Assembly: GCA_014695195.1 (NCBI GenBank) | Contig: JACJNW010000028.1 | Coordinates: 124,001 to 188,000, forward strand | Direction: 5' to 3' | DNA: 64,000 bases | DNA from: Cyanobacteria bacterium FACHB-DQ100 | Lineage (GTDB): Bacteria; Cyanobacteriota; Cyanobacteriia; Leptolyngbyales; Leptolyngbyaceae | In this document: positions 20,138 to 60,769 of the stretch, in pieces | Position numbering within the stretch: the stretch's first letter is position 1 | Layout: every line of letters starts with the position of its first letter | Made by a program: the position numbers and the translations under genes | Notes under the pieces: generated by a model | What the model saw: the letters and a program-made list of their open reading frames with translations, nothing else | The model's database searches: none | What the model was told of the DNA's origin: nothing

Positions 20138-21379
20138 ATGGGGAAGTCAGGTATGTTAGTTGATGATTCTTCAACCGATTCTCCTAGCGGTTTGCTTGGC
20201 ATTCGCAGCCGAATGCACTTTAGTGGACGGTTAGATGTTTTTGGTAGTGGGCAACAGTGGAGTCTATACCTCTATATGGGGCGATTAATCTGGGCAACGG
20301 GTGGGCCACATCCTCACCGTCGCTGGCATCGCTATCTCACCCAGCATTGTCCCCACCTCAGTCCTAGCGCGATCGCGCTTCCCTCCACCACAGATACGCT
20401 CTGTCAGGACTATCAAGCTTTGAATATCCTGGCAAAATGCCAGCAAATCAATCCAGAACAAGCGGTTGCGCTGATCCGCAGCACCGTCAAAGAAATCCTA
20501 TTCGACATCATTCAGCAGGAAGAAACCCGACCCGTCACCTTCAAAACCGATGCTCAAGACATGCCAGAAGCATCGTTGGCACTGCTCAACGCTGAACATC
20601 TTCTCAATGAAGTGCAGCAACAATGGAATACTTGGCGATCGCTGGGATTTGCAGATCATTCTCCCAACCTTGCACCTGTTCTGCGCCATCCGGAGCAACT
20701 GCAAGAACACACCCCAGAAAAACTCTATAAAATGCTCATTTCGCTCATCGATGGTCGGCGGACTCTGCGGGATCTGGCAATGTTGACCAAGCAAGACTTG
20801 CTGCAATTCATGCGCGTGCTTGTGCCCCTGTACCGCAAAGGACTGGTTGCCCTGATCCAAATTCCCGATCTGGCGCTTCCGGGAACAGCCCAACCGAGTA
20901 CACCAACTTCTGGCTCTATCCAATCCAACCCCTCTAGCAACAGCGCACCCCAAAAAAGCCAACCCCAGCGGATTATCTCCTCACCGCCGATCGCAGGCTC
21001 AAACCGCGCCCCGCTAATCGCCTGCATCGACGACAGCAAGAGAGAATGCCAGCTCATGGAGCGCATTCTTACAGAGGCAGGCTATCAGTTTGTCGGCATC
21101 CAAGACTCGATTCAAGCATTGCCCGTCCTGCTGGAGAAAAAACCTGGCTTAATTTTTCTGGATTTGGTCATGCCGATTGCCAACGGATACGAGATTTGTG
21201 CTCAAGTTCGTCGGGTTTCTGCCTTTAAAGATATCCCGATTGTTATTTTGACGGGCAGTGACGGAATCATAGATCGAGTCCGGGCAAAGTTTGTCGGGGC
21301 ATCAGGATTTTTAGCCAAGCCAGTTGATGCCGATCGGGTGTTAACCGTGGCGCGAAAAGCCCTGCCGATTGATAGTTAA
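20138..21379 (+). CDS. pixG: PATAN-domain response regulator (PixG/PatA-like)
   Basis: A 413-residue protein. An N-terminal PATAN (PatA N-terminal) domain of about 250 residues begins with GLLGIRSRMHFSGRLDVF and includes LYLYMGRLIWATGG. A low-complexity Ser/Pro/Gln linker follows (about 255-285). The C-terminal receiver domain (about 288-410) has IACIDDSKRE, phospho-acceptor Asp in IFLDLVMP, Thr in ILTGSD and Lys in FLAKPVD. It heads a six-gene chemotaxis-type cluster in the order G-H-I-J-L-CheW, as for cyanobacterial pix/tax1 loci; the gene name is by synteny. In Synechocystis the pixG product is part of the phototaxis pathway that acts on type IV pili. Confidence 0.9.
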   Translation: MGKSGMLVDDSSTDSPSGLLGIRSRMHFSGRLDVFGSGQQWSLYLYMGRLIWATGGPHPHRRWHRYLTQHCPHLSPSAIALPSTTDTLCQDYQALNILAKCQQINPEQAVALIRSTVKEILFDIIQQEETRPVTFKTDAQDMPEASLALLNAEHLLNEVQQQWNTWRSLGFADHSPNLAPVLRHPEQLQEHTPEKLYKMLISLIDGRRTLRDLAMLTKQDLLQFMRVLVPLYRKGLVALIQIPDLALPGTAQPSTPTSGSIQSNPSSNSAPQKSQPQRIISSPPIAGSNRAPLIACIDDSKRECQLMERILTEAGYQFVGIQDSIQALPVLLEKKPGLIFLDLVMPIANGYEICAQVRRVSAFKDIPIVILTGSDGIIDRVRAKFVGASGFLAKPVDADRVLTVARKALPIDS

Positions 21380-21395
21380 CGATGCGGAGAAGCGA

Positions 21396-21761
21396 ATGAA
21401 AACGGTACTGCTAGTTGAAGATAGTGTGACTGAGATGCAGCTTTTGACGGTTTACCTGCAAAGGGCGGGACTGACCGTAGTGAGCGCTCAAAGCGGTGAA
21501 GAAGCCCAAACCAAACTGACGGCTCAAACTCCTGATTTAATTGTGCTAGATGTGATCTTGCCTGGACAAAGCGGGTTTGAACTCTGCCGCGAACTCAAGT
21601 CCGACCCTAAAACGAAGCAAATTCCTGTCGTGATTTGTTCAACCAAAGATACTGAAGTCGATATGATCTGGGGCAACCTGCTCGGCGCAAATGCCTATCT
21701 TCCCAAACCCGTTAATCCCGCTACACTGCTCAGCACGATTCGCGATCTCAAGGTAATTTAA
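21396..21761 (+). CDS. pixH: CheY-like response regulator (PixH-like)
   Basis: A 121-residue single receiver domain starting MKTVLLVEDS (ATG 21396, with GGAG six bases upstream; the frame is open to 21369). It has the acidic pair ED, phospho-acceptor Asp in IVLDVILPG, the switch Ser/Thr near VVICSTKD and Lys in YLPKPVN. No output domain. It follows the PATAN regulator by 16 bases. In related loci this protein is the phosphate sink or motor-side regulator for phototaxis. Confidence 0.92.
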   Translation: MKTVLLVEDSVTEMQLLTVYLQRAGLTVVSAQSGEEAQTKLTAQTPDLIVLDVILPGQSGFELCRELKSDPKTKQIPVVICSTKDTEVDMIWGNLLGANAYLPKPVNPATLLSTIRDLKVI

Positions 21762-21775
21762 CGGAGGCGCACAGT

Positions 21776-22345
21776 ATGGTTGGTATGGCTGCTCCTTTGG
21801 AATGGGCACCATTGCGTGTCCCACAGCCTGCTTCGATCGCCAGCCTGGAATCGTTGCTGAATCCACCTGTCGAGATCAAACCGCTTGAGAAATTTTTGCG
21901 GTTTCACCTGAACCAATCTCACTCGATGCTGCTACCGCTAGAAGACATCATTGCCGTACAGGCCATTTCAATTCTGGATGTCTTGCCTGTACCGCAAATG
22001 AGCGCTTGTGTGTTGGGATTGTCAAACTGGCGCGGCGAAGCGCTTTGGCTTGTCGATCTGCTTTACCAGCTTGGATTCGACGAGATCTTACAGCCCGCAC
22101 AATCCCTGACTATCTTGAACGCGATCGTCGTGCAGTTCCAAGGCAAATGGCTCGGTTTAACGGTTCAAGCGATCGGTGAAATTGAAGAACATGATCCAGA
22201 GAAACTGGTGCATCCCTCTCCGGATCTGTTTGCTCAGCCCCTCGCTGCTTTTATCAAGGGATATTTTGGGCATGACCATAGCATTGTCTTAAGCACTGCT
22301 GCCATTTTGCAAGATCCAGCTTTACATTCACAGGCTTCAATCTAA
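21776..22345 (+). CDS. pixI: CheW-like coupling protein (PixI-like)
   Basis: A 189-residue protein with one CheW domain (about 45-185): [41 protein letters not shown] and [17 protein letters not shown]. CheW proteins link receptors to the CheA kinase. GGAGG lies eight bases before the ATG. The gene is 15 bases after the CheY-like gene and 31 bases before the receptor gene. Confidence 0.92.
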
Positions 22346-22376: not shown

Positions 22377-25300
22377 ATGTCTGCATCGCATCGTTCTGAA
22401 CCTACCCTGGATTTGTCTTCCATGTTTTCCGCAGAACCCACGCTCGAAGAATTTACAGCTTTCCTCTCAGAGACTCCCGTTGAGGTGAATGGGATGAGCG
22501 GTAGAAATGCTGCGATCGAGCCTGCGCCAACCCCCGAATCCGTCGCTACCTACACAAACGGCAATGGCGCAAGTCAAACCAACTCAGAGGAGACAGGACG
22601 CGATCTCCAACAAGTTGTAACGGCGCTGACGGGATTGAAATCGGAACTCAAGCGGGCAGGACTCCTTGAGAAACCTAACATTCAAAATTTATTTCGCCAG
22701 GTTGCAGAATTTGCGGCGGTTCAGCCCAAGCAGCAGGGCGGGGTAAGAGAACTGCGCGATCACCGCAAGCAGCTTACGACGATCGCGGCTCAGATGCGCC
22801 TGATCACTGACATAGACGCTTTAATGAAGGTCTTTGTCAAAGTTGCCCGCGAAACCCTGCAAGCCGATCGCGCCCTAATCTATCGGTTTAACGCTCAAGA
22901 CACAGGATCGATCATTGCCGAATCGGTAGTGCGAGGATGGACACCCGCGCTAGGAGCAACCCCTTCACTGACTTGTTTTTGTTTTGATCAGCCCGAAGAC
23001 TATGTGACGCATCAAGTGGTCGTTGTTGAAGATGTCAATCGTGTCGATTTGATGCCGTACCAACATCAACTGCTCGAACAACTGCAAGTCAAAGCAAGTC
23101 TAAGCTTACCGATTCGGGTGTCGGGTCAAGCTTGGGGTTTACTGATTCTGCAACAATGTTCCCGCTCCAGGGTGTGGCAAGAAGTTGAGATTAACCTCCT
23201 GCACCAGCTTTGTTTGGAACTCACGATCAATCTACAGCAGTCAGAGTTTTCCTCAAAGCTGACGCAGCAAAATGAAGCGGAAAAAGCGATCTTCAAAGTA
23301 ATCGATCGCATTCGTCGATCGCTTGATCTCGACACTGTATTTCGGACGACCACCCAAGAAATCCGTCAGCTTCTCAAAGTCGATCGCGTCAGCCTTTATC
23401 GCTTTGAACCGGACTGGAGCGGTGAATTTGTGGCAGAATCGACTGCTCCGGGTTGGACTTCGCTGCTTCAAGAACAAATCGATAGTCCCATCCTCAAACA
23501 GAACATCAGTGAATGTAGCGCTAAGCAGCTAGGCAATAGTTCAGCCCGCACTACCGATACCTATCTCCAGCAAACGCAGGGCGGCAAGTTGTCGAATCCC
23601 ACTGCTTTTCGAGCCGTAAGCGATATCTATGAGGCGGGCTTCTCACCTTGCTACATTGAGATGCTAGAACGCTATCAAGCAAGAGCTTATGTGATTGTCC
23701 CCATCTTGCAGAATCAGAAGCTTTGGGGCTTGTTGGCGGCGTATCAGAATTCGGCTTCTCGCGATTGGCAAGATGCAGAAATTTCGCTGATGTCCCGGTT
23801 GGGATTACAGTTAGGCGTGGCGATTCAACAAGCACAAAATCTTCAACAGCTACGATCGCAGACCGAGCAACTTGCAAAAGTATCTGAGCGTGAACGCGCT
23901 GCGGCACGAGTGATTGATAAGATTCGTACATCGCTCGATCTCAATACAATCTTTAAAACTGCAACTCAAGAAGTTCGACAGTTTCTCAACACCGATCGCG
24001 TCTGTGTGTATCGGTTCAGCCCGGATTGGAGTGGTGAATTTGTTGCAGAATCGGTTGTACCAGGCTGGATTTCACTGATGGAAGAGCAGCTTGAGAACGC
24101 CGTCTTCAAAGAAAACGCCAGCGACTGTGATATCAAAACAATAGGTAGAGCCAAATCGATCGACACCTATTTACAACAAACTCAAGGGGGTGCATACGCA
24201 AAAGGCACAAACTTTAGAGCCGTTTCGGATATCTACAAAGCTGGATTTTCGCCGTGTTATCTCGGTGTGCTAGAACGCTACCAAGCAAAAGCCTACATCA
24301 TTGTTCCGATCATGCAAGGAGAAAAGCTGTGGGGCTTGCTAGCAGCCTATCAAAATTCAGGAGTCCGGCACTGGGATGATTCTGAAGTTAGCTTGATGAT
24401 TCAGATTGGAACTCAGCTAGGGGTGGCGATTCAGCAAGCAGAATATTTAAAGCAGGTTGAAGCTCAAACGGAACAACTGAAAAAAGCAGCAGCACGGGAA
24501 CGCAACTTCATTCGTGTGATCGACCAAGTGAATAAGTCGGTGCTGGAGCGGATTCGCCAATCGAGCGACATTGAGACAATCTTTGGACAGACCACTCAGC
24601 AGATTCGACAATTTTTGCAAACCGATCGCATCGCAATTTATCGCTTTAATGAGGACTGGGGCGGTGTATTTGTCTCAGAATCGATTACACCAGGCTGGTC
24701 GCGGTTAGTTGGGGCTGATTTTCAAACAACTTGGGATGACACGCATTTGCAGGAGACTCAGGGCGGACGATACCGCAACAATGAAAGCATTGCAGTCGAT
24801 GATATCTATAAAGCGGGGCACTTGCCGTGTCACACCGAGAAGCTGGAACAATTTCAAGTTAAGGCGTACATGATTGTGCCCATTTTTGCAGGGCAGAAGC
24901 TTTGGGGACTAATGGGGGCGTATCAGAATAACGCTCCACGTCATTGGGAAGAGTCAGAGATTAATTTGCTGGCTCAACTTGGGGCACAGCTAGGGGTCGC
25001 AATTCAGCAGTCTGAGTATCTCTCGCAGATTCAACGGCAAGCTGAACGGGAAAAAATTCTGTCAAAGATCAGCGATCGCATTCGCCAGCCGATCGATTTG
25101 GAGCATCAGTCCTCGGATGTCAATTCGATTTTTCAGGCGATCACTCAGGATATTCGGCAATTTCTTAAAGTCGATCGAGCTGCTCTCTATCGCTTTAATC
25201 CAGACTGGAGCGGTGATTTTGTCTATGAATCGGTATCCGCAGGATGGAGCAAGCTGGTTGGCAGCGAGATTGGAACAAACGTGCAAGATACTCATCTGCG

Positions 25301-26627
25301 CGACACCAAAGGCGGGCGATACCGCAACCGGGAGAGCTTAGCGATCGATGATATTTACAATGCAGGTCACGATCCTTGCCACGTTGAGCTTTTAGAGAAG
25401 TTTGAGGCGCGGGCATATGTCCTGGTTCCCGTTTTTAGCAAACAAGAACTCTGGGGAATTCTAGCGGTTTACCAGAATAACGGCCCTCGTCAATGGGAAG
25501 ACGCAGATGTCGCCTTACTCAATCAGATTGCTGGGCAGCTTGGCGTGGTACTAGAGCAAGTTAACTCCCTCGAAAGGCTGAGAATCCAGTCTGAACAACT
25601 TGCCGAAGCAGCACAGCGCGAGAAAATGGCAAAAGAACAACTGCAAACCCAAGTCATTCAACTTCTGACCGCAGTGAGACCTGTGTTCTCTGGGGATTTA
25701 ACGGTTCGGGTTCCAGTCGTTGAGAACGAAGTGGGAACGATCGCCGACGCTTACAACAACACCATTCAAAGCTTACGCAAAATCGTGACTCAGGTGCAGA
25801 CTTCTGCAACTCAGGTGACGAACACCTCTCATAGCAGCAGCACTGCGATTGCAAAGCTGACTGAACAAGCCGAGGAACAGCTACAGGAAGTGACACGCGC
25901 GCTCGATCAGCTTCAAGCGATGGTGAGTTCAACGCAAGCAGTCGCGGCAAATGCTCGACAGGTTGAAACGGCACTCCAGCAAGCCAACCAAACTGTGCGA
26001 TCGGGCGATGCAGCGATGAACCGCACGGTTGATAGCATTCTGGCGATTCGAGAGACGGTAGCGGAAACGAGCAAGAAAATTAAGCGCCTGAGTGAATCCT
26101 CGCAGAAGATCTCGAAAGTGGTGAGTTTGATTAGCAATTTCACGACGCAAACGCAGTTACTCGCATTAAACGCTTCGATCGAGGCAACCCGCGCTGGTGA
26201 GTACGGGCGAGGCTTTACGGTGGTGGCAGATGAAGTGCGATCGCTGGCGCGACAATCGGCTGAGGCAACCCGCGAAATCGAAAAACTATCGCAGGAGATT
26301 CAGTCTGAAACAAGCGCGGTCGCAACTGCAATGGACACAGGAATTCAGCAAGTCGTCAACGGAACTGGACTCGTTAACGAGACTCGCCAACAGTTAAACG
26401 AGATCATCAACGCGACTGCGCAGATTAGTCAATTGGTCTACGCAATCACCGAGGCAACGCAAGCGCAAACTCAACAATCGAAATTAGTGACGCAGGCGAT
26501 GACAGATGTGGCAGATTTAGCAAATAAGAATTCTGAACAGTCGAATCAAATCTCGACCTCGTTCCAGGAGTTGCTAAACACAGCTCAGCAGCTCCAAGTC
26601 AGCGTGACACAGTTCAAGGTGAGTTAG
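22377..26627 (+). CDS. pixJ: five-GAF cyanobacteriochrome chemoreceptor (PixJ/PtxD-like)
   Basis: A 1416-residue receptor without transmembrane spans. After a disordered N-terminus there are five GAF domains (roughly 145-285, 305-490, 510-700, 725-895, 905-1085), a HAMP-like segment (about 1105-1155, [17 protein letters not shown]) and an MCP signalling domain with the hairpin motif [23 protein letters not shown]1 lacks a bilin cysteine. GAF2-GAF5 have it at Cys425 and Cys627 (PCY) and Cys818 and Cys1001 (PCH), each after IY.AG. GAF4 and GAF5 have DTHLQ/RxTxGG, the red/green cyanobacteriochrome style; GAF2 and GAF3 have [10 protein letters not shown] plus an insertion with an additional Cys (380 and 584). 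A phototaxis photoreceptor role is inferred from cysteines, family and gene neighbours. Confidence 0.93.
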
Positions 26628-26908: not shown

Positions 26909-29900
26909 ATGATGTCTGATGCTAAACTCCGTGAACAAACTTACTCGTACTTTCTGACAGAAGCGCAGGATTTACTGCAGTCGATCGAGCAACATTTATT
27001 CTCGCTGCGTCAAGATCGCTCTGCCGCTAAAGTGCATGAACTGATGAGAGCGGCTCACACGCTCAAAGGAGCCGCCGCCAGCGTTGAATTTGAGAGTGTC
27101 AAAACGATCGCGCACTCGTTTGAAGATGTTTTTAAGGCGTTGTTTAAGCCGGAGGTCACGATCGATGCAGGGCTAGAAGCTTTGCTATATGAAGGGTACG
27201 ACTGTCTACGAATGCCCATAACGGCAGCGATCGCGGGAGTGAGTTGTCAAGAAGCAGAGGTACTAAATCGAGCAGAGGCAATTTTTTCTCAGATTCGCAA
27301 AAAGCTGGGTCGGCATTTTGATGCAGATGCTGCGATACCAACCTCGGCAGAGTTGGGGTTTGATCTCGTTCAGTCGATGTTTGAAACTGGAGTACAGGAA
27401 CGGCTTGAGCAATTAGAAAGTGTACTCGCAGCAGGAAACTCAACCGCGATCGCCGAAACCCTACAAACGCAGGCAGAAGTATTTTTAGGATTAGCAGAAT
27501 CGCTCAGTTTAAAGGGATTTGGCGCGATCGCTCAAACAGCTTTAACCGCACTCAAACGCCAACCCGATCGAGTGCAGGACATTGCTAAAGCGGCACTGAG
27601 CGATTTTCGCCAAGGACAGAGTGCGGTTCTCAGCGGCGATCGAGTTTCAGGCGGTGAAGTGTCAACTGCACTCAAGCAGTTTGCAGGACTGAGCCAGAAG
27701 CCGAATGACTCTGTCCCCAGCGCTTGGACAAGATTAAAGCGGTTTCTCCGACGATCGCTGCTCAATCCTCCCACAGTCAAACCCGAACCTTCTCAAAATA
27801 TTCCTGAGTCAAATGACCTCTTTACCGTTGATCCTGCCTTTGAACAACTTGCCACCGAGTTTGCGGCACAGGCCGAACTTCAGGATTTAGGCTTTCAGGA
27901 TTTGAACTTCCAGGATTCAAACCTCCAGGATTCAAGTTCAAACATGGAATTCTGGGACGCAGAACCCGCTCTAAACGATGCGTCAAACCATGCTGCCCTA
28001 ACCGTTTCTCCGCCTGTGGTAGCGGCTCCCCCGCAGTCCGTTGCTCAAAAAGCCACGCTCTCAGATACCATTCGGGTTGACCTAGCCAATTTAGAGTCGC
28101 TGAACTTGATTACCAGTGAACTCCTGATCTATCAGAATCAGCAATTGCTTCAAGATGAACAGTTGCAAGTGATGCTGGTCGATTTGGTCGATCGGCTGAA
28201 TCGGCATCAGCAGATGCTATCGCAGTTGAAAGACTGGGCATCTATTGCTCCGGAGCGCTTCGCTAGAGGAGGTCATTCTCTCGCAACAAACAGCGATTTG
28301 AAGCAGAAATTCGATCCGCTTGAACTCGATCGATACAATGAGTTTTATGTGCGCCTACAGAGAGCTGTGACAGAAGCAGAGCAGCTTGAAACCGTAGCAG
28401 AAGCGATCGGATTCCTAGCGCGAGAGTCTCGATTGACGCGGGGTAAGCAAGGGCGGCTGTTATCCAATCTACGGGATGATTTGATCACGGTTCGGATGAT
28501 GCCGATCGGTACCATTTTCAATCGCTTGCCTGCTGTAGTGCAACAACTAAGCGAAACTTATGGCAAAACCGTGAACTTGCGGTTAGCTGGAACCGAAGTA
28601 ATGGTCGATAAAGCCCTTGCAGAAAAGCTTTATGATCCATTGCTGCACTTAGTTCGCAATGCGTTTGATCATGGAGTCGAGCCTGATTCACTGCGATCGC
28701 AGCAAGGAAAATCGATCGGTGAAATCGAAGTTCGTGCTTATCAGCAAGGCAATCGGACGGTGATCGAAGTCAAGGATAATGGGCGCGGCTTAGATTTACA
28801 AAAAATTTGTCAGCGTGGATTTGAACAAGGACGACTGCCTTCTTGCTACGTCGATCGCTGCTCCGAATCTGAACTTCTAAACCTGCTGTTTGAGCCTGGT
28901 TTTTCGACGGCTGAGCAAGTCACAGACTTGTCCGGGCGGGGCGTTGGACTGGATGTGGTGCGATCGCAAATTCAAGCGATGCGCGGCACTGTGACGATTA
29001 CCTCAGAACCCAACCAAGGGACAACTTTTTCATTGCAATTGCCGCTCACCCTGATCAGCGCGAGACTGCTGGTATGCCAAGCAGGACACGCAATCTACGG
29101 CATGATCTCTGAGGACGTAATCCGAATCGTGTCGCCCAGTAGCGCAGAGGTCGAACAACTGGGACAGCAGCGCGTTTTACATTGGCGCTATGAAGACGAG
29201 AAACAAACTGTTCCAATTCATTCACTCTCTGATGCTGTAACTTACACGAACCGATTAATCAGCCTCCAAGCGGCGCTACATTCAACTGAGGAGCTTAGAA
29301 CTGTTCCGGCGCTGACCTCATCGATTCTGATTTGCAGGCATCAGAATACTTGGGTTGGGATCGAGGTCGATCGCGTACTTGGAGAACAAGAACTGGTACT
29401 ACGACCTGTGGGAAATACGCTCACACCACCCAGCTACATCTATGGCTGTAGTGTTCTAGGCGATGGTCGATCGCTCTTGGCGATCGATGCGGTCGCATTA
29501 GTCGAGCGAAATCAAGCGAGGTCTAACGCTGTCCCAACTCAATCTACACTCATTGCAAAAACCGTATTAGTCGTTGATGATTCGCTCACGGTGCGGCAAA
29601 CCGTTGCAGCAACACTCAACCGCGCAGGATATCAAGTGATTCAAGCACAAGATGGATTAGAGGCGATCGCGCAGCTACAGCAGCATCCTGAGATTCAACT
29701 GATTACCTGTGACATTGAAATGCCGCGTCTCAATGGCTTTGAATTTCTCAAGCGGTACAAGCAAGCGTCCCAGGCTCCAGTCGTCATGCTCACCTCTCGC
29801 ACCAGCGAAAAACATCAGCAGTTGGCAAAGCAGCTCGGCGCGGCAGCCTATCTCACTAAGCCGTATGACCAGGGTGAATTACTTCAGCTAGTCGAACAGT

Positions 29901-29926
29901 TGATCAACGCAAAGGTGGTGCAGTAA
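26909..29926 (+). CDS. pixL: hybrid CheA histidine kinase with receiver domain (PixL-like)
   Basis: A 1005-residue CheA. Hpt domain: phospho-acceptor His50 in RAAHTLKGAAAS. A long variable linker follows (about 130-380). Then the dimerisation region, an ATP-binding domain with N-box LVRNAFDHGVE and glycine loops NGRGLD and LSGRGVGLDVV, a CheW-like domain (about 705-865) and a C-terminal receiver with Asp in ITCDIEMP, Thr in MLTSRTS and Lys in YLTKPYD. ATG at 26909 (tandem ATGATG). It phosphorylates its own receiver and the CheY-like proteins of the cluster. The linker has a 15-bp tandem repeat (27881-27940). Confidence 0.94.
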   Translation: MMSDAKLREQTYSYFLTEAQDLLQSIEQHLFSLRQDRSAAKVHELMRAAHTLKGAAASVEFESVKTIAHSFEDVFKALFKPEVTIDAGLEALLYEGYDCLRMPITAAIAGVSCQEAEVLNRAEAIFSQIRKKLGRHFDADAAIPTSAELGFDLVQSMFETGVQERLEQLESVLAAGNSTAIAETLQTQAEVFLGLAESLSLKGFGAIAQTALTALKRQPDRVQDIAKAALSDFRQGQSAVLSGDRVSGGEVSTALKQFAGLSQKPNDSVPSAWTRLKRFLRRSLLNPPTVKPEPSQNIPESNDLFTVDPAFEQLATEFAAQAELQDLGFQDLNFQDSNLQDSSSNMEFWDAEPALNDASNHAALTVSPPVVAAPPQSVAQKATLSDTIRVDLANLESLNLITSELLIYQNQQLLQDEQLQVMLVDLVDRLNRHQQMLSQLKDWASIAPERFARGGHSLATNSDLKQKFDPLELDRYNEFYVRLQRAVTEAEQLETVAEAIGFLARESRLTRGKQGRLLSNLRDDLITVRMMPIGTIFNRLPAVVQQLSETYGKTVNLRLAGTEVMVDKALAEKLYDPLLHLVRNAFDHGVEPDSLRSQQGKSIGEIEVRAYQQGNRTVIEVKDNGRGLDLQKICQRGFEQGRLPSCYVDRCSESELLNLLFEPGFSTAEQVTDLSGRGVGLDVVRSQIQAMRGTVTITSEPNQGTTFSLQLPLTLISARLLVCQAGHAIYGMISEDVIRIVSPSSAEVEQLGQQRVLHWRYEDEKQTVPIHSLSDAVTYTNRLISLQAALHSTEELRTVPALTSSILICRHQNTWVGIEVDRVLGEQELVLRPVGNTLTPPSYIYGCSVLGDGRSLLAIDAVALVERNQARSNAVPTQSTLIAKTVLVVDDSLTVRQTVAATLNRAGYQVIQAQDGLEAIAQLQQHPEIQLITCDIEMPRLNGFEFLKRYKQASQAPVVMLTSRTSEKHQQLAKQLGAAAYLTKPYDQGELLQLVEQLINAKVVQ
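27881..27940 (+). repeat. 15-bp tandem repeat (x4) inside the CheA gene
   Basis: Four in-frame 15-base units start at 27881, 27896, 27911 and 27926; each begins CAGGATT. They encode five-residue units QDLGF, QDLNF, QDSNL and QDSSS. The repeat is in the variable linker between the Hpt and kinase core, where length change should be tolerated. Confidence 0.85.
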
Positions 29927-29930
29927 GTCT

Positions 29931-30401
29931 ATGAACACTTCTCAAACTCTGAACCAGAAACAAACGGTTCGATTGATAATTTTTGCGATCGCAGGCTATC
30001 GATTCGGTTTACCGCTCCATCGCATTTTACGGGTTGTCAACTGTCCAGATGACTTGCGATCGCGCCCCGTAGAACCGCTTGAACTTTTTCCAGTGGGACA
30101 GCAGACGCTTTCGGTGCTGAATCTGCGATCGCAATTAGGTCTAGCTTCAACAGATCAGGCAGGTGACTTCTTGGTCATTGCGAAAATCAAAGCAGAACTC
30201 TGTGCAATTCGAGTGGATGCACCGCCGGATTTGATCGAAGTGGATGCTACCGCGATTCGACAGTTACCCGCGCCTTATCGCCAAGGTCATCCTCTCAGTA
30301 TCGCCAGTCAAGTCGTCGTATTGCCCCAAGGAAAAGCAACACTCGCAGTCTTTCTGCTGGAAATTGAGCGGTTGTTTGCCTGCTTAGGCGCAAGTCGTTG
30401 A
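29931..30401 (+). CDS. second CheW-like coupling protein
   Basis: A 156-residue CheW domain protein: VRLIIFAIAGYRFGLPLHRILRVV, a central LNLRSQLGL and VQAP-like residues, ending in VFLLEIERLF. It starts 4 bases after the CheA stop, so the two are translationally close. A CheW at the end of the cluster beside the earlier CheW (21776) suggests either two receptor classes or different coupling to the kinase. Its fold is CheW-like but divergent from the first copy. Confidence 0.85.
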   Translation: MNTSQTLNQKQTVRLIIFAIAGYRFGLPLHRILRVVNCPDDLRSRPVEPLELFPVGQQTLSVLNLRSQLGLASTDQAGDFLVIAKIKAELCAIRVDAPPDLIEVDATAIRQLPAPYRQGHPLSIASQVVVLPQGKATLAVFLLEIERLFACLGASR

Positions 30402-50085: not shown

Positions 50086-53000
50086 TCAACGATAAAGCCA
50101 AACGCGCAGCAATGACAATAATTGCTCAGTATCAACAGGCTTCGTAATGTAATCAGATGCGCCTGCTTCGATACATTTTTCTCGATCGCCCTGCATTGCT
50201 TTTGCAGTGAGCGCAATGATCGGCAGGGATTTAAATTGCGGTTGTTCTCGAATGGCGCGGGTTGTCTCATAACCATCCATTTCTGGCATCATAATATCCA
50301 TCAGAACGACATTTGTATCGGGATGGGCTTGCAGCGTTTCAATGCCTTCGCGCCCATTCTCAGCGTAGAACACTTCCATCTGCTGACGCTCTAGCAAGCT
50401 TGTCAACGCAAAAATGTTCCGCATATCATCATCGATAATCAAGACTCTCTTGTTTCCTAAGACAGAATCGGCTTGATGCAGGTCTTCGAGGATTTGGCGT
50501 TTGGGCTGCGGTAGGTTCGCTTGCACACGGTGGAGAAACAGTGCAGTTTCATCAAGTAAGCGTTCGGGCGATCGTACATCTTTGATGATGATTGTCTCTG
50601 CAAGGCGTTTTAGCTGCGTCTCTTCTGGGCGGGTTAGTTCTTTGCCGGTGTAGATGATGATGGGAATTTTAGATAAAGCATCGTCTTGCTTGATCTGTTC
50701 GATGAGATCGAAACCGCTCATATCCGGGAGTCCCAAATCCATTACAACACAGTCAATTTGCTGTGAGTGTAATGTTGATAACGCATCTTTTGCTGTGTAA
50801 GCAGCAATGCTATTGACATCTCCGTTGCCAATCAGATCAATGATGCTTTGAGCTTGTACGGTGTCATCTTCAATGATTAGCAAGTTTTTAACGCGCCGAT
50901 CGATAAAGCTTTGAATCTCACCGAACAATTGAGTTAAGTCGTCAGAAGAAACAGGCTTTTGCAGATAAGCGATCGCGCCCAATTGCAATCCGCGTTGGCG
51001 CTGGTCGTCGCTCGATAGAATGTGAACCGGAATATGACGCAGTTCTGGATCACGCTTTAAGCGATCGAGGACTGCCCAGCCGTCCATATCGGGCAAATGT
51101 AAATCTAGTAGAATTGCACGCGGTTTGAATTGTTGTGCCAGCGCCAATCCCGATTGACTCCTCAAGGCTGCAAGTACCTTAAAGCCCTGCCGTCGTGCAA
51201 TATCTGTGAGAATTTTAACGAAGTTCACATCGTCTTCGATGATCAGTAGCACACGATCTCCCCCGTGAATCGAAGCACGATCGTCTGGAACTTCTGAAGT
51301 CAGATTGAGCGTTGGTGCAGGACGAGACACCGGAGGAGTAACGGTCTCTGGAGTCGTCGCAATTGGATCTTGAGTTTGAGGAAGGTAGAGTGTGAAGGTA
51401 CTCCCGCGATCGGGTTCACTGGTCACTTCAATAAAGCCACCCAGTCGATAGGCTAACTCTCGACTAATCGACAGTCCTAAGCCTGTCCCCCCAAACTTAC
51501 GGCTTGTTGTGCCATCAACCTGCTGAAATGCTTCAAAAATTAGCTGCTGCTTCTCACGCGGAATGCCAATCCCGGTATCCTGCACTGCAAAAAAAACTTT
51601 TTGATCCTGAGTTGAACCAATCCGAACGGTGACGCTTCCTTGTTCCGTGAATTTGAAAGCATTGGCGAGTAGATTCTTGAGAATCTGCTGAAGACGTTTG
51701 CTATCCGTTGAGATGACTTCTGGTGCTTGAGGATCACGCTCGATCGAGAACGCGAGTTCTTTACTGCTGGCAATCTGGCGGAAGGTGCGATCGAGACTCC
51801 GTTGCAGATCCGTGAGGTTAAGCGGTTCAATGTCGATCGCAATGGTTCCCGATTCAATCTTGGCAAGGTCGAGAATGTCATTGATCAACGTCAGCAAGTC
51901 ATTACCAGAAGAGTAGATTGTTTTGCTGTATTCCACCTGCTTGTCGGTTAAATTCTGGTCTGCGTTGTCACTGAGGATCTTTGCTAGAATCAGCAAACTG
52001 TTGAGTGGTGTTCTCAACTCATGCGACATATTCGCCAAGAACTCCGACTTATACCGGGATGAAACTTCTAACTGCTCTGCTTTTTCTTGCAGTGCCAGCA
52101 TCGCTTGATCAATCTCACCGTTTTTCTGTTCAACTTCGCGCTTTTGTGCAGCTAAGAGTTCTGCTTTTTCTTCAAGCTCCTCGTTAAGTTGCTGTAGCTC
52201 TTCGTTGGAGACTTTTAGCTCCTCTTGTTGTTCTTGCAGACGGAGTTCTGATTCTTCTAGAGCACGGGTTTGATCCTGAAGCTGTCGATTGCTTTGGTAA
52301 AGTTCTTCTTGCTGACTTCGCAGTTCTTCTGCCAAAGCTTGTGACTCTTTGAGTAACTGCTGCGTTTTTGCATCCGATGCGATCGCTTTTAACACAACCC
52401 CGATCGTTTGTGCTAATCGCTCTAATAAGGTGAGTTGAACCTCTGTGAATCGCTGAAATGATGCTAATTCGAGCACCGCAACGACTTCGTTTTCAAACAG
52501 CACGGGCAAAACAATCACATTGATTGGGCTTGCATCTCCTAAGCCCGATCGAATCCGAATGTAATCGCTTGGAACATCCGTTAAAAGAATGCGTTGCTTT
52601 TCTAGCGCACATTGTCCGACTAATCCCTCGCCTAAGTGAAACTGATTCGATAGCTGTTTGCGCTCTTGATACGCATAGCTACTTAACAGTTTGAGTACAG
52701 GTGGCGATAGTTCTGTATCCATCACGTAAAATGCGCCATGCCGAGATCCCACTAACGGAGCAAGGTGCGATAACATCAATCGCGACACCGTTTCTAAGCT
52801 CCGCTCTCCCTGAATCAAGTGGGAAAATTCTGCTAAGTTAGTCTGTAACCAAGTTTGGCGATCGCTCTTTTGCAAACTATCGCGCAAACTGTCTACCATT
52901 TGCCGCAAGGTGCGCGTTAGAATGCCAACTTCGTCTTGACGATCCAGCCTGGGCAGTTGTGCTGATAAGTCGCCGTCAGCAATTCTTTCAGCACTCCGTG

Positions 53001-53652
53001 AAACTTGGGTTAAAGGGGTTGAGATATGGCGATTGAGCAAAACACCCAAAATTGCCAGCAGCGTAAACGCAAGCGGCATCCCGATCGCAATGCTATCCAG
53101 TGTATTCTGTGCGGCAATATTGGCATTTCTGGATCGCTGATCCAGTAGCCTTTGTTCTCGCACTTTCATCTGATCGATGATTCGTCGAATCTGATCGGTA
53201 ACAGGCTTGCCGCGCCGTACACTATCATCTTGTATGACTGCTTGCAGCCCTCGCGCTCGTCTGAGGGCAATGCGCTCCTTCATCAGTTCGATGCGTTGAT
53301 CAACTAGACCCGCTAACTGCCTTATATCCTGTTGTTGAGTAGGATTATCTATGGTTAGCTGGCGAACATTTCCAATCCTTTGCTGAACCGTACTGATCGC
53401 GAGGTTGTAGGGCTGCAAATACGGTGTTTCACCAGTTAATAAATATCCCCGCTGTCCGTTTTCAGCTTCAACGATCAAGGATAGAATGTCTTCGAGTTCT
53501 CCTAAGACCTGATAAGTATGAGTGACCCAGCGTGAGGTTGCGATCAATTCACGGGTTCCACTGTATGAGGCAATTCCGATCGCTGCGAAAATGGAGAGTC
53601 CGAGTCCAAATGCCGCTCCGATCTTTGTCCCAATTCGCAAGCGCTTCAACAT
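50086..53652 (-). CDS. hybrid histidine kinase CHASE3-HAMP-GAF-HisKA-HATPase with three receivers
   Basis: A 1188-residue membrane sensor kinase. N-terminal span, CHASE3 domain (about 40-180: [20 protein letters not shown]), second span, HAMP (about 205-260), GAF (about 290-430), a long coiled coil (about 435-545), HisKA with His in [13 protein letters not shown], HATPase motifs ([31 protein letters not shown]) and three receivers with Asp in [16 protein letters not shown] and LMDIMMPE. The third receiver has the typical [14 protein letters not shown] start. It senses an unknown signal. It faces left and is followed by the amidotransferase gene. Confidence 0.94.
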
Positions 53653-58696: not shown

Positions 58697-60769
58697 CTAC
58701 GCTCCAGCAATTTCTAAATTCTGCGGCAGCATGATCGTAAAGCAGGTTTCGTAAGATTGGGAGTCTGGAGCCGCCACGCTAATTGCCTCGATCGTGCCAT
58801 TGAGATGCTGTACTAGACTTTTAACCAGCGCTAGTCCCAATCCAGTTCCAGGCACGGCGTTTTGAGTCATCCCCTGACACCGACGAAATTTATCAAAGAT
58901 GTGCGGCAGTTCTTCCTCGGAAATGGGCGAACCCGTATTTGATAGAGAGAGCTTAATTTGCTGACCCGGCTCCAGCGTCACCTCTAGCCCAACTGTGCTA
59001 TTCGGCTCGGCGTATTTGCCTGCATTCGTCAGTAATTCCAGCAAAATTCGCTGAAAACTGGCTAAATCCGTATGAAAAACAGGCGATCGAGCAGGTAATT
59101 TCACATCCAGCGTCAATCCTTTTGCTGCCCAGCGTTGATTAAACGACTGCGACAACTCCTCGATGGCGTGTGGTAATTCGACCCGCTGAAGCTGAAAGGC
59201 AACCTGTTTAGTTTCTAGTTCCTGTAGCGCCAGTAGATCGTTGATCAAGCTAGTTTCTTGAGCACACTGCTGCTCCAGAATATTGAGATACTGATCGCGT
59301 CGCTCAGGAGTCAGCGTCGCCTGCCGCAACATCCGAATCGCCAGCATCATGCTCGTTAAGGGTGTCCGTAGCTCGTGGCTGAGCGTGCTGATGAACTCGT
59401 CCATCCGCTGATTCATTTCCCGTAGCTTCTCGATTTGTCTGCGGGTAATTTCGTAGAGTCGCGCTTGTAGCTCTAAACTTTGCTGAAGCTGCGCCGTTCG
59501 CTCTTCAACCAGCGATTCTACCTGACGTAGGGTTTCGGTCTGAATGATTGCTGCACTAATTTGAGCGCTCAAGAGTTCAACCAGCGCAATCTCTTCCGGG
59601 AGCCAATTGCGCGATCGACTCTGCTGAACGGCAATAAATCCAAGCAAGCGGTTTTTGCTTTCTAAAGGTACAAGCAGCAGTGCAGGCATTTTTGCCGGAT
59701 CGAAAATTGCGGCAACGCCCGCCGCTTCTCCCGTCGCGGTCGGAAATGCTGCAACATCTCTAAACACAAATGATTTTGCCGCACTTCGCAGTACAGCTTG
59801 GCAAACACCGCAATCGTTCACCCAAAACGACTGGCTCAACGGTGTCTCGGCTTCTAAGTCCAGGGGCTGCCGCCACTCGCTGTCAATCATGACGCGCATT
59901 TTCGGCACTCGATTGCTGTTCGATCGCAGACTCTGCCGTGGGTCCCAAAACTTCGCCCTCAGCACAAACGCTCGATCGATTTCAAGCGATTCGGCTAATC
60001 CTTCTAGCGCCAATTGCTGAACTTGCGGCAGATCCAAAGAATTCTGAATTGCCATTGTCACTCGGCGGAGCAGCGCTTGATATTGCGCTTGTTTTGCAAC
60101 TTTTTGTTGCAGCAGAATTTGTGAAATCGCGATCGCAACCTGGTCAGTAATCTGAGCTAAGGTGTCAATCTCAAGATCGCTCCACTGATGCGCCTGAGTC
60201 CACATCAAGCTCACAACACCATTGATCCGCCCTTGAAACCGAGTCGGCAGACTAACTACCGATCGAATTGGCAACGCTCTTGCAGCGTAATCAATTTCGC
60301 TCAGGGTCAAGTCGGAGATCAATAATCCTGCGCGTTCTAGAGTCGCAGATTCAAGGATTACGGAGTTTGACACAATCTCTTTCTGCTGGCTGGCTGTGAA
60401 CTGCGAGTGGGCAAACCAAGCCATGAGCGATCGATCCAAAGATTCAGACTGAATTGAAATCAAGCAAGCTTGTGCGCCATAAGCTTCACCTAACAGCGCC
60501 GCTACTTCAGATAAAACGGCATCGGGCTGAGTCGCACGACTGAGCGCCTGAACTAGCTTTCGTCCGATCGTGGCTTCCACTGTGGCGAGAGCCGATTGAA
60601 AGGCATGAGAATGCGACACAGTTTCGAGAGAATGGGTAGACGCTGAGGCAAGCCGATCCGAATCAATCCGAATCATCTCATCTCTTCTTGTAGTGTTGAC
60701 AACATCCATGACCTGCCCCACAATTTCCTGCGATTTTACTGTTTCCGATCGCGAAACTTTTGCTTGCAT
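58697..60769 (-). CDS. GAF-domain sensor histidine kinase, cytosolic
   Basis: A 690-residue protein without membrane spans. Two GAF domains (about 75-215 and 235-410), a coiled coil (about 420-460), HisKA with His in [15 protein letters not shown], and HATPase motifs (ELLTNAGKYAEP; PHIFDKFRRCQG; GTGLGLALV). The GAFs lack a bilin Cys motif. No receiver domain. It senses an unknown intracellular signal. It starts at ATG 60769, divergent from the HerA gene. Confidence 0.92.
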   Translation of the reverse strand: MQAKVSRSETVKSQEIVGQVMDVVNTTRRDEMIRIDSDRLASASTHSLETVSHSHAFQSALATVEATIGRKLVQALSRATQPDAVLSEVAALLGEAYGAQACLISIQSESLDRSLMAWFAHSQFTASQQKEIVSNSVILESATLERAGLLISDLTLSEIDYAARALPIRSVVSLPTRFQGRINGVVSLMWTQAHQWSDLEIDTLAQITDQVAIAISQILLQQKVAKQAQYQALLRRVTMAIQNSLDLPQVQQLALEGLAESLEIDRAFVLRAKFWDPRQSLRSNSNRVPKMRVMIDSEWRQPLDLEAETPLSQSFWVNDCGVCQAVLRSAAKSFVFRDVAAFPTATGEAAGVAAIFDPAKMPALLLVPLESKNRLLGFIAVQQSRSRNWLPEEIALVELLSAQISAAIIQTETLRQVESLVEERTAQLQQSLELQARLYEITRRQIEKLREMNQRMDEFISTLSHELRTPLTSMMLAIRMLRQATLTPERRDQYLNILEQQCAQETSLINDLLALQELETKQVAFQLQRVELPHAIEELSQSFNQRWAAKGLTLDVKLPARSPVFHTDLASFQRILLELLTNAGKYAEPNSTVGLEVTLEPGQQIKLSLSNTGSPISEEELPHIFDKFRRCQGMTQNAVPGTGLGLALVKSLVQHLNGTIEAISVAAPDSQSYETCFTIMLPQNLEIAGA

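Follow-up and report, generated by a model that had tools for sequence, protein, structure and literature searches.

Tandem insert-Cys cyanobacteriochrome domains in a probable five-GAF PtxD-type phototaxis receptor of Cyanobacteria bacterium FACHB-DQ100

In insert-Cys cyanobacteriochromes a second cysteine, carried on a loop, adds to C10, and DTYL replaces the DXCF motif; a CXXR/K motif is also present and is poorly conserved (PMC5240096). Both the CXXR/K motif and DTYL instead of DXCF are given as features of the type (PMC5240096; PMC5578081). Described members cover several photocycles: NpF2164g3 is violet/orange, NpF2164g2 and NpR1597g2 are near-UV/blue, and Mbr3854g4 and Mbl3738g2 are near-UV/green (PMC5240096). 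The loop of NpF2164g3 reportedly undergoes a light-dependent coil-to-helix change (PMC5240096), and in NpF2164g2 and NpR1597g2 the second bond is kept in both photostates (PMC5578081). NpF2164, also called PtxD, serves the hormogonia of Nostoc punctiforme as phototaxis receptor; it has seven GAF domains and an MCP domain, and its gene is clustered with those for CheY, CheW, and CheA (PMC5812497).

We analyzed a window of 64,000 nucleotides from Cyanobacteria bacterium FACHB-DQ100, in which a gene at 22377..26627 on the forward strand encodes a PtxD/PixJ-type photoreceptor MCP of 1416 amino acids. It lies in a cluster read entirely from the forward strand: a DUF4388 and receiver response regulator of PixG/PatA-like type (20138..21379), a CheY-like response regulator (21369..21761), CheW (21776..22345), the MCP, a CheA-receiver hybrid kinase (26909..29926), and a second CheW-like protein (29931..30401). 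A photoreceptor MCP with multiple GAF domains thus adjoins CheY, CheW, and CheA homologues, as in a PtxD-type cluster, a type also defined by its requirement in positive phototaxis. For comparison we used loci from two Nostoc genomes (L149 and L150), taken as PtxD type from their architecture, cysteine number, and gene order. They encode proteins of 1748 and 1741 residues with seven GAFs, a Cys-less g1, and insert-Cys g2 and g3, whose loop motifs are CSVR and CNIK and whose canonical cysteines are both followed by Tyr. The g3 loop cysteine is at residue 549 and 542, respectively, versus the published C546, and the gene order is regulator-CheY-CheW-MCP-CheA. The first five cluster proteins of the window pair in the same order with those of L149, at 37, 60, 35, about 45 (MCP), and 40% identity.

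The MCP has cysteines at residues 200, 202, 261, 279, 380, 425, 543, 584, 627, 818, and 1001. GAF4 and GAF5 each have a single canonical cysteine in a Cys-His pair (Cys818, 24828..24830; Cys1001, 25377..25379) and are red/green-like. GAF1 reads PYQH and is without the canonical cysteine; it contains TCFCFDQP at the DXCF position (aa 197-205; window 22965-22990). This segment is kept in five relatives (L009, L010, L011, L151, and L152), reads TCLCF in L013, and is not present in g1 of the Nostoc PtxD. It resembles the DXCIP group, where the bilin is attached by that DXCIP cysteine alone (PMC5578081), so GAF1, by analogy, may bind a bilin after all, despite the absent canonical cysteine. Two more GAF-containing histidine kinases are encoded in the window, at 50086-53652 and 58697-60769 (-), one of them a CHASE3-HAMP-GAF hybrid with three receivers.

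GAF2 (aa 302-502, 23280..23882) and GAF3 (aa 506-704, 23892..24488) carry a loop of about 18-20 extra residues ahead of the Asp motif. In GAF2 the stretch from PGW to DTYL is 33 residues long (aa 361-393, 23457..23555) and holds Cys380 (codon TGT, 23514..23516) in the motif CSAK; DTYL follows at 23556..23567 in place of DXCF, and the canonical bilin cysteine, Cys425 (codon TGC, 23649..23651), is followed by Tyr. The corresponding stretch of GAF3 is 31 residues long (aa 565-595, 24069..24161), with Cys584 (codon TGT, 24126..24128) in CDIK, DTYL at 24162..24173, and Cys627 (codon TGT, 24255..24257), likewise followed by Tyr. Each domain therefore combines a canonical bilin cysteine, a loop cysteine in a CXXR/K setting, and a DTYL motif without the DXCF cysteine. 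The second cysteine lies 45 residues (GAF2) or 43 residues (GAF3) upstream of the canonical one, which bears out, residue by residue, the initial annotation of Cys380 and Cys584 in an insertion ahead of Cys425 and Cys627. Its statement that GAF4 and GAF5 lack both insertion and extra cysteine also held: only 13 residues separate the Trp of PGW from DTYL or DTHL in these two domains, and no cysteine was found in that stretch.

Some cysteine is expected in about 23% of 33-residue stretches of the MCP. In an alignment of GAF2 and GAF3 with 54 diverse relatives, which were chosen for having an insert cysteine and not for its column, the loop cysteine occupied one column in all sequences. The same column in both paralogues and 54 relatives, together with nearly fixed spacing, argues that these cysteines are not there by chance. 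An AlphaFold2 model of GAF2 built from 54 sequences had a mean pLDDT of 83.7 and the cyanobacteriochrome GAF fold; residues 80-92, directly after the loop cysteine (model residue 79), fell below 50. This low-confidence segment agrees with a mobile loop and with the coil-to-helix change of the NpF2164g3 loop, and the placement of the cysteine at the bilin is not given by the model. A predicted flexible loop whose position is not readable is what could be expected if the bilin were out of reach of the loop cysteine and GAF2 and GAF3 acted as single-Cys red/green sensors. We consider this very unlikely, given the invariant column over 54 diverse domains and the near-constant spacing, and given that the loop cysteine sets the dark-state color in all four relatives in which it was mutated. 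Two loop cysteines in adjoining domains of one chain might also have a purpose other than bilin attachment, for instance a disulphide or a redox switch linking GAF2 to GAF3. Many receptors, however, have a lone insert-Cys GAF with the same cysteine, so a partner cysteine is not required, and such a role is highly improbable. Attachment of the loop cysteines of both domains to the pigment, giving near-ultraviolet or violet absorption, is very probable.

When bacterial and archaeal genomes were scanned with an alignment of GAF2 and GAF3, 383 related places were returned, from which 80 loci were kept; of 292 genomes sampled from the phylum of the host, 58 gave strong matches. Two N-terminal peptide patterns, neither of which includes the loop or the Cys-Tyr pair, were used to fetch the relatives. 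From all fetched loci 497 GAF domains were extracted, and 155 were assigned to the insert-Cys set by a cysteine-containing loop 22 or more residues long plus the canonical cysteine. Within this set DTYL was exact in 126 of 155 domains, CXX[RK] was present in 120 of 155, and the distance from second to canonical cysteine was 41-56 residues in 152 of 155, mostly 43 or 45. Tyr followed the canonical cysteine in every insert-Cys domain (155/155, and 70/70 once thinned at 80% identity). Because relatives were ranked by likeness to GAF2 and GAF3, a bias towards Cys-Tyr is possible, and the comparison set consisted of non-seed domains from the same proteins: there Tyr followed in 36 of 79 domains with a DXCF-like cysteine and in 10 of 103 single-Cys domains. 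These counts rule out Cys-Tyr as an oddity, contrary to the initial annotation, which had regarded Tyr instead of His next to the canonical cysteine as an unusual combination. Tyr instead marks the insert-Cys subfamily. Nor is a tandem of such domains new, since PtxD g2 and g3 are already such a pair. GAF2 and GAF3 are a known sensor type in a species not previously looked at. Three or four insert-Cys GAFs per protein were seen in three loci (L110, L156, and L159), against two in PtxD. An insert-Cys cyanobacteriochrome closely similar to the Aliterella one turned up in a metagenome-assembled genome labelled Tatlockia (Pseudomonadota; L088, 6001-6609), where a cyanobacterial contig has probably been misbinned.

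A tree of 109 domains placed GAF2 and GAF3 within one insert-Cys clade of 12 rows (support 99/96). Of the insert-Cys GAFs in Leptolyngbya-type relatives, the first clustered with GAF2 and the second with GAF3, which makes the pair older than the divergence of these genera. The g2 and g3 of Nostoc were placed elsewhere among the insert-Cys domains. One-to-one orthology of GAF2 with PtxD g2 and of GAF3 with g3 was rejected, as the window pair shares one clade with the Leptolyngbya-type relatives. The two window domains are more closely related to one another and to these relatives than to g2 and g3, and a one-to-one transfer of colors from PtxD is therefore not justified. Single-Cys red/green domains branched inside the insert-Cys set or next to it, but weakly supported. 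The published view derives insert-Cys types from red/green cyanobacteriochromes; at this support the reverse, with the loop cysteine lost on the path to red/green domains, is equally possible.

Colors were approached through pocket positions I, III, and X (PMC5240096), which we mapped by alignment from the distances of published residues: they are Ser/Phe/Tyr in GAF2, Cys/Phe/Tyr in GAF3, and C672/F684/Y777 in UG1 (Mbr3854g4). Phe and Tyr at III and X, the beta2 and helix-4 positions, are common to GAF2, GAF3, UG1, and Nostoc g2-type domains; Nostoc g3-type domains have Phe at position X. A color rule for positions III and X, based on a small number of proteins, suggests near-UV dark states as the best guess for both domains, and a near-UV dark state with a blue or green photoproduct is tentatively favored over violet/orange. 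The broader assignment of the initial annotation, of GAF2 and GAF3 to dual-cysteine domains of the insert-Cys type, has good support from sequence, phylogeny, and characterized members, as does absorption in the near-UV to violet. As a sub-case, GAF2 and/or GAF3 could be UV/blue sensors that retain the loop thioether in both photostates and form no green or orange state. The loop motif and the Phe/Tyr pair are common to Nostoc g2 and to NpR1597g2-type domains (L039, 56% identical to GAF2), and thioether retention is published for NpF2164g2 and NpR1597g2 (PMC5578081). UG1 nevertheless combines the same pair with a labile thioether, and sequence alone cannot tell both behaviors apart; we give retention somewhat less than an even chance.

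We consider it highly likely that the phototaxis receptor is of PtxD type and that GAF2 and GAF3 form a tandem of insert-Cys cyanobacteriochromes in it, with the photocycle set out below. The gene order, domains, both cysteines, loop, motifs, and kinship are features of the locus itself. A PcyA-type bilin reductase and a full heme oxygenase are each encoded once in the host genome, which presumably makes phycocyanobilin available. A second heme oxygenase gene (C6:75539-75959 of the host genome) is seemingly in two pieces, with matches in different open frames. Phycocyanobilin would be bound via Cys425 in GAF2 and Cys627 in GAF3. In the dark 15Z state Cys380 and Cys584 would add to C10 of the bilin and break conjugation, yielding the near-UV or violet form. 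Light would isomerize the C15=C16 bond, after which the loop thioether would be let go to give a green or orange photoproduct, or be kept in a UV/blue subtype. With GAF4 and GAF5 as single-Cys, probably red/green, domains, the receptor could weigh short- against long-wavelength light and signal from the MCP domain through CheW and CheA to CheY-like regulators, which would in turn bias motility by type IV pili. The adduct chemistry, photocycle, and phototaxis output proposed here are carried over by analogy from studied relatives.

We further hypothesized that the Tyr after the canonical cysteine acts in functional partnership with the loop thioether. In every insert-Cys domain it would take the place of the His that contacts the bilin, and Cys-Tyr and loop cysteine would thus form an obligatory pair for near-UV sensing; GAF2 and GAF3 would also differ in the stability of the second bond and provide two short-wavelength channels in one receptor. 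This proposal is speculative and, on balance, doubtful. As a sequence mark of the insert-Cys type, Cys-Tyr is reliable and helps to predict near-UV sensors from genomes. With this locus the PtxD phototaxis receptor gains a compact five-GAF version that has two probable short-wavelength domains; the understanding of how insert-Cys domains work is unchanged by it.

Among solved structures, the best fold match of GAF2 was the red/green AnPixJg2 (PDB 3w2z; 46% identity, E 3e-19), which, unlike GAF2, is without an insertion loop and has a single cysteine in a Cys-His rather than a Cys-Tyr pair. TePixJ (PDB 4glq and 3vv4; DXCF blue/green) is likewise a phototaxis-type MCP. It differs in that its second cysteine lies inside the DXCF motif, and it is only 26% identical. 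That second cysteine adds to C10, as proposed for GAF2 and GAF3. UG1 of Microcoleus B353 (near-UV/green), compared by its published residues, shares with both window domains the insert cysteine, DTYL, Phe at beta2, and Tyr at helix 4, and, with GAF3 but not GAF2, the Cys at the beta1 notch; its cysteine and DTYL are 26 residues apart (C713 to D739), versus 14 and 12 in GAF2 and GAF3. The likeness to PtxD (NpF2164) covers both the protein and its gene cluster: an MCP with a Cys-less first GAF, insert-Cys g2 and g3, and then single-Cys GAFs, as seen in L149 and L150, encoded in the order regulator-CheY-CheW-MCP-CheA (PMC5812497, PMC5240096; L149/L150). PtxD has seven GAFs, whereas the window MCP has five; GAF2 and GAF3 are about 48-53% identical to Nostoc g2 and g3 and group apart from them in the tree. 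A five-GAF form of the PtxD receptor is the most fitting description of the window MCP.
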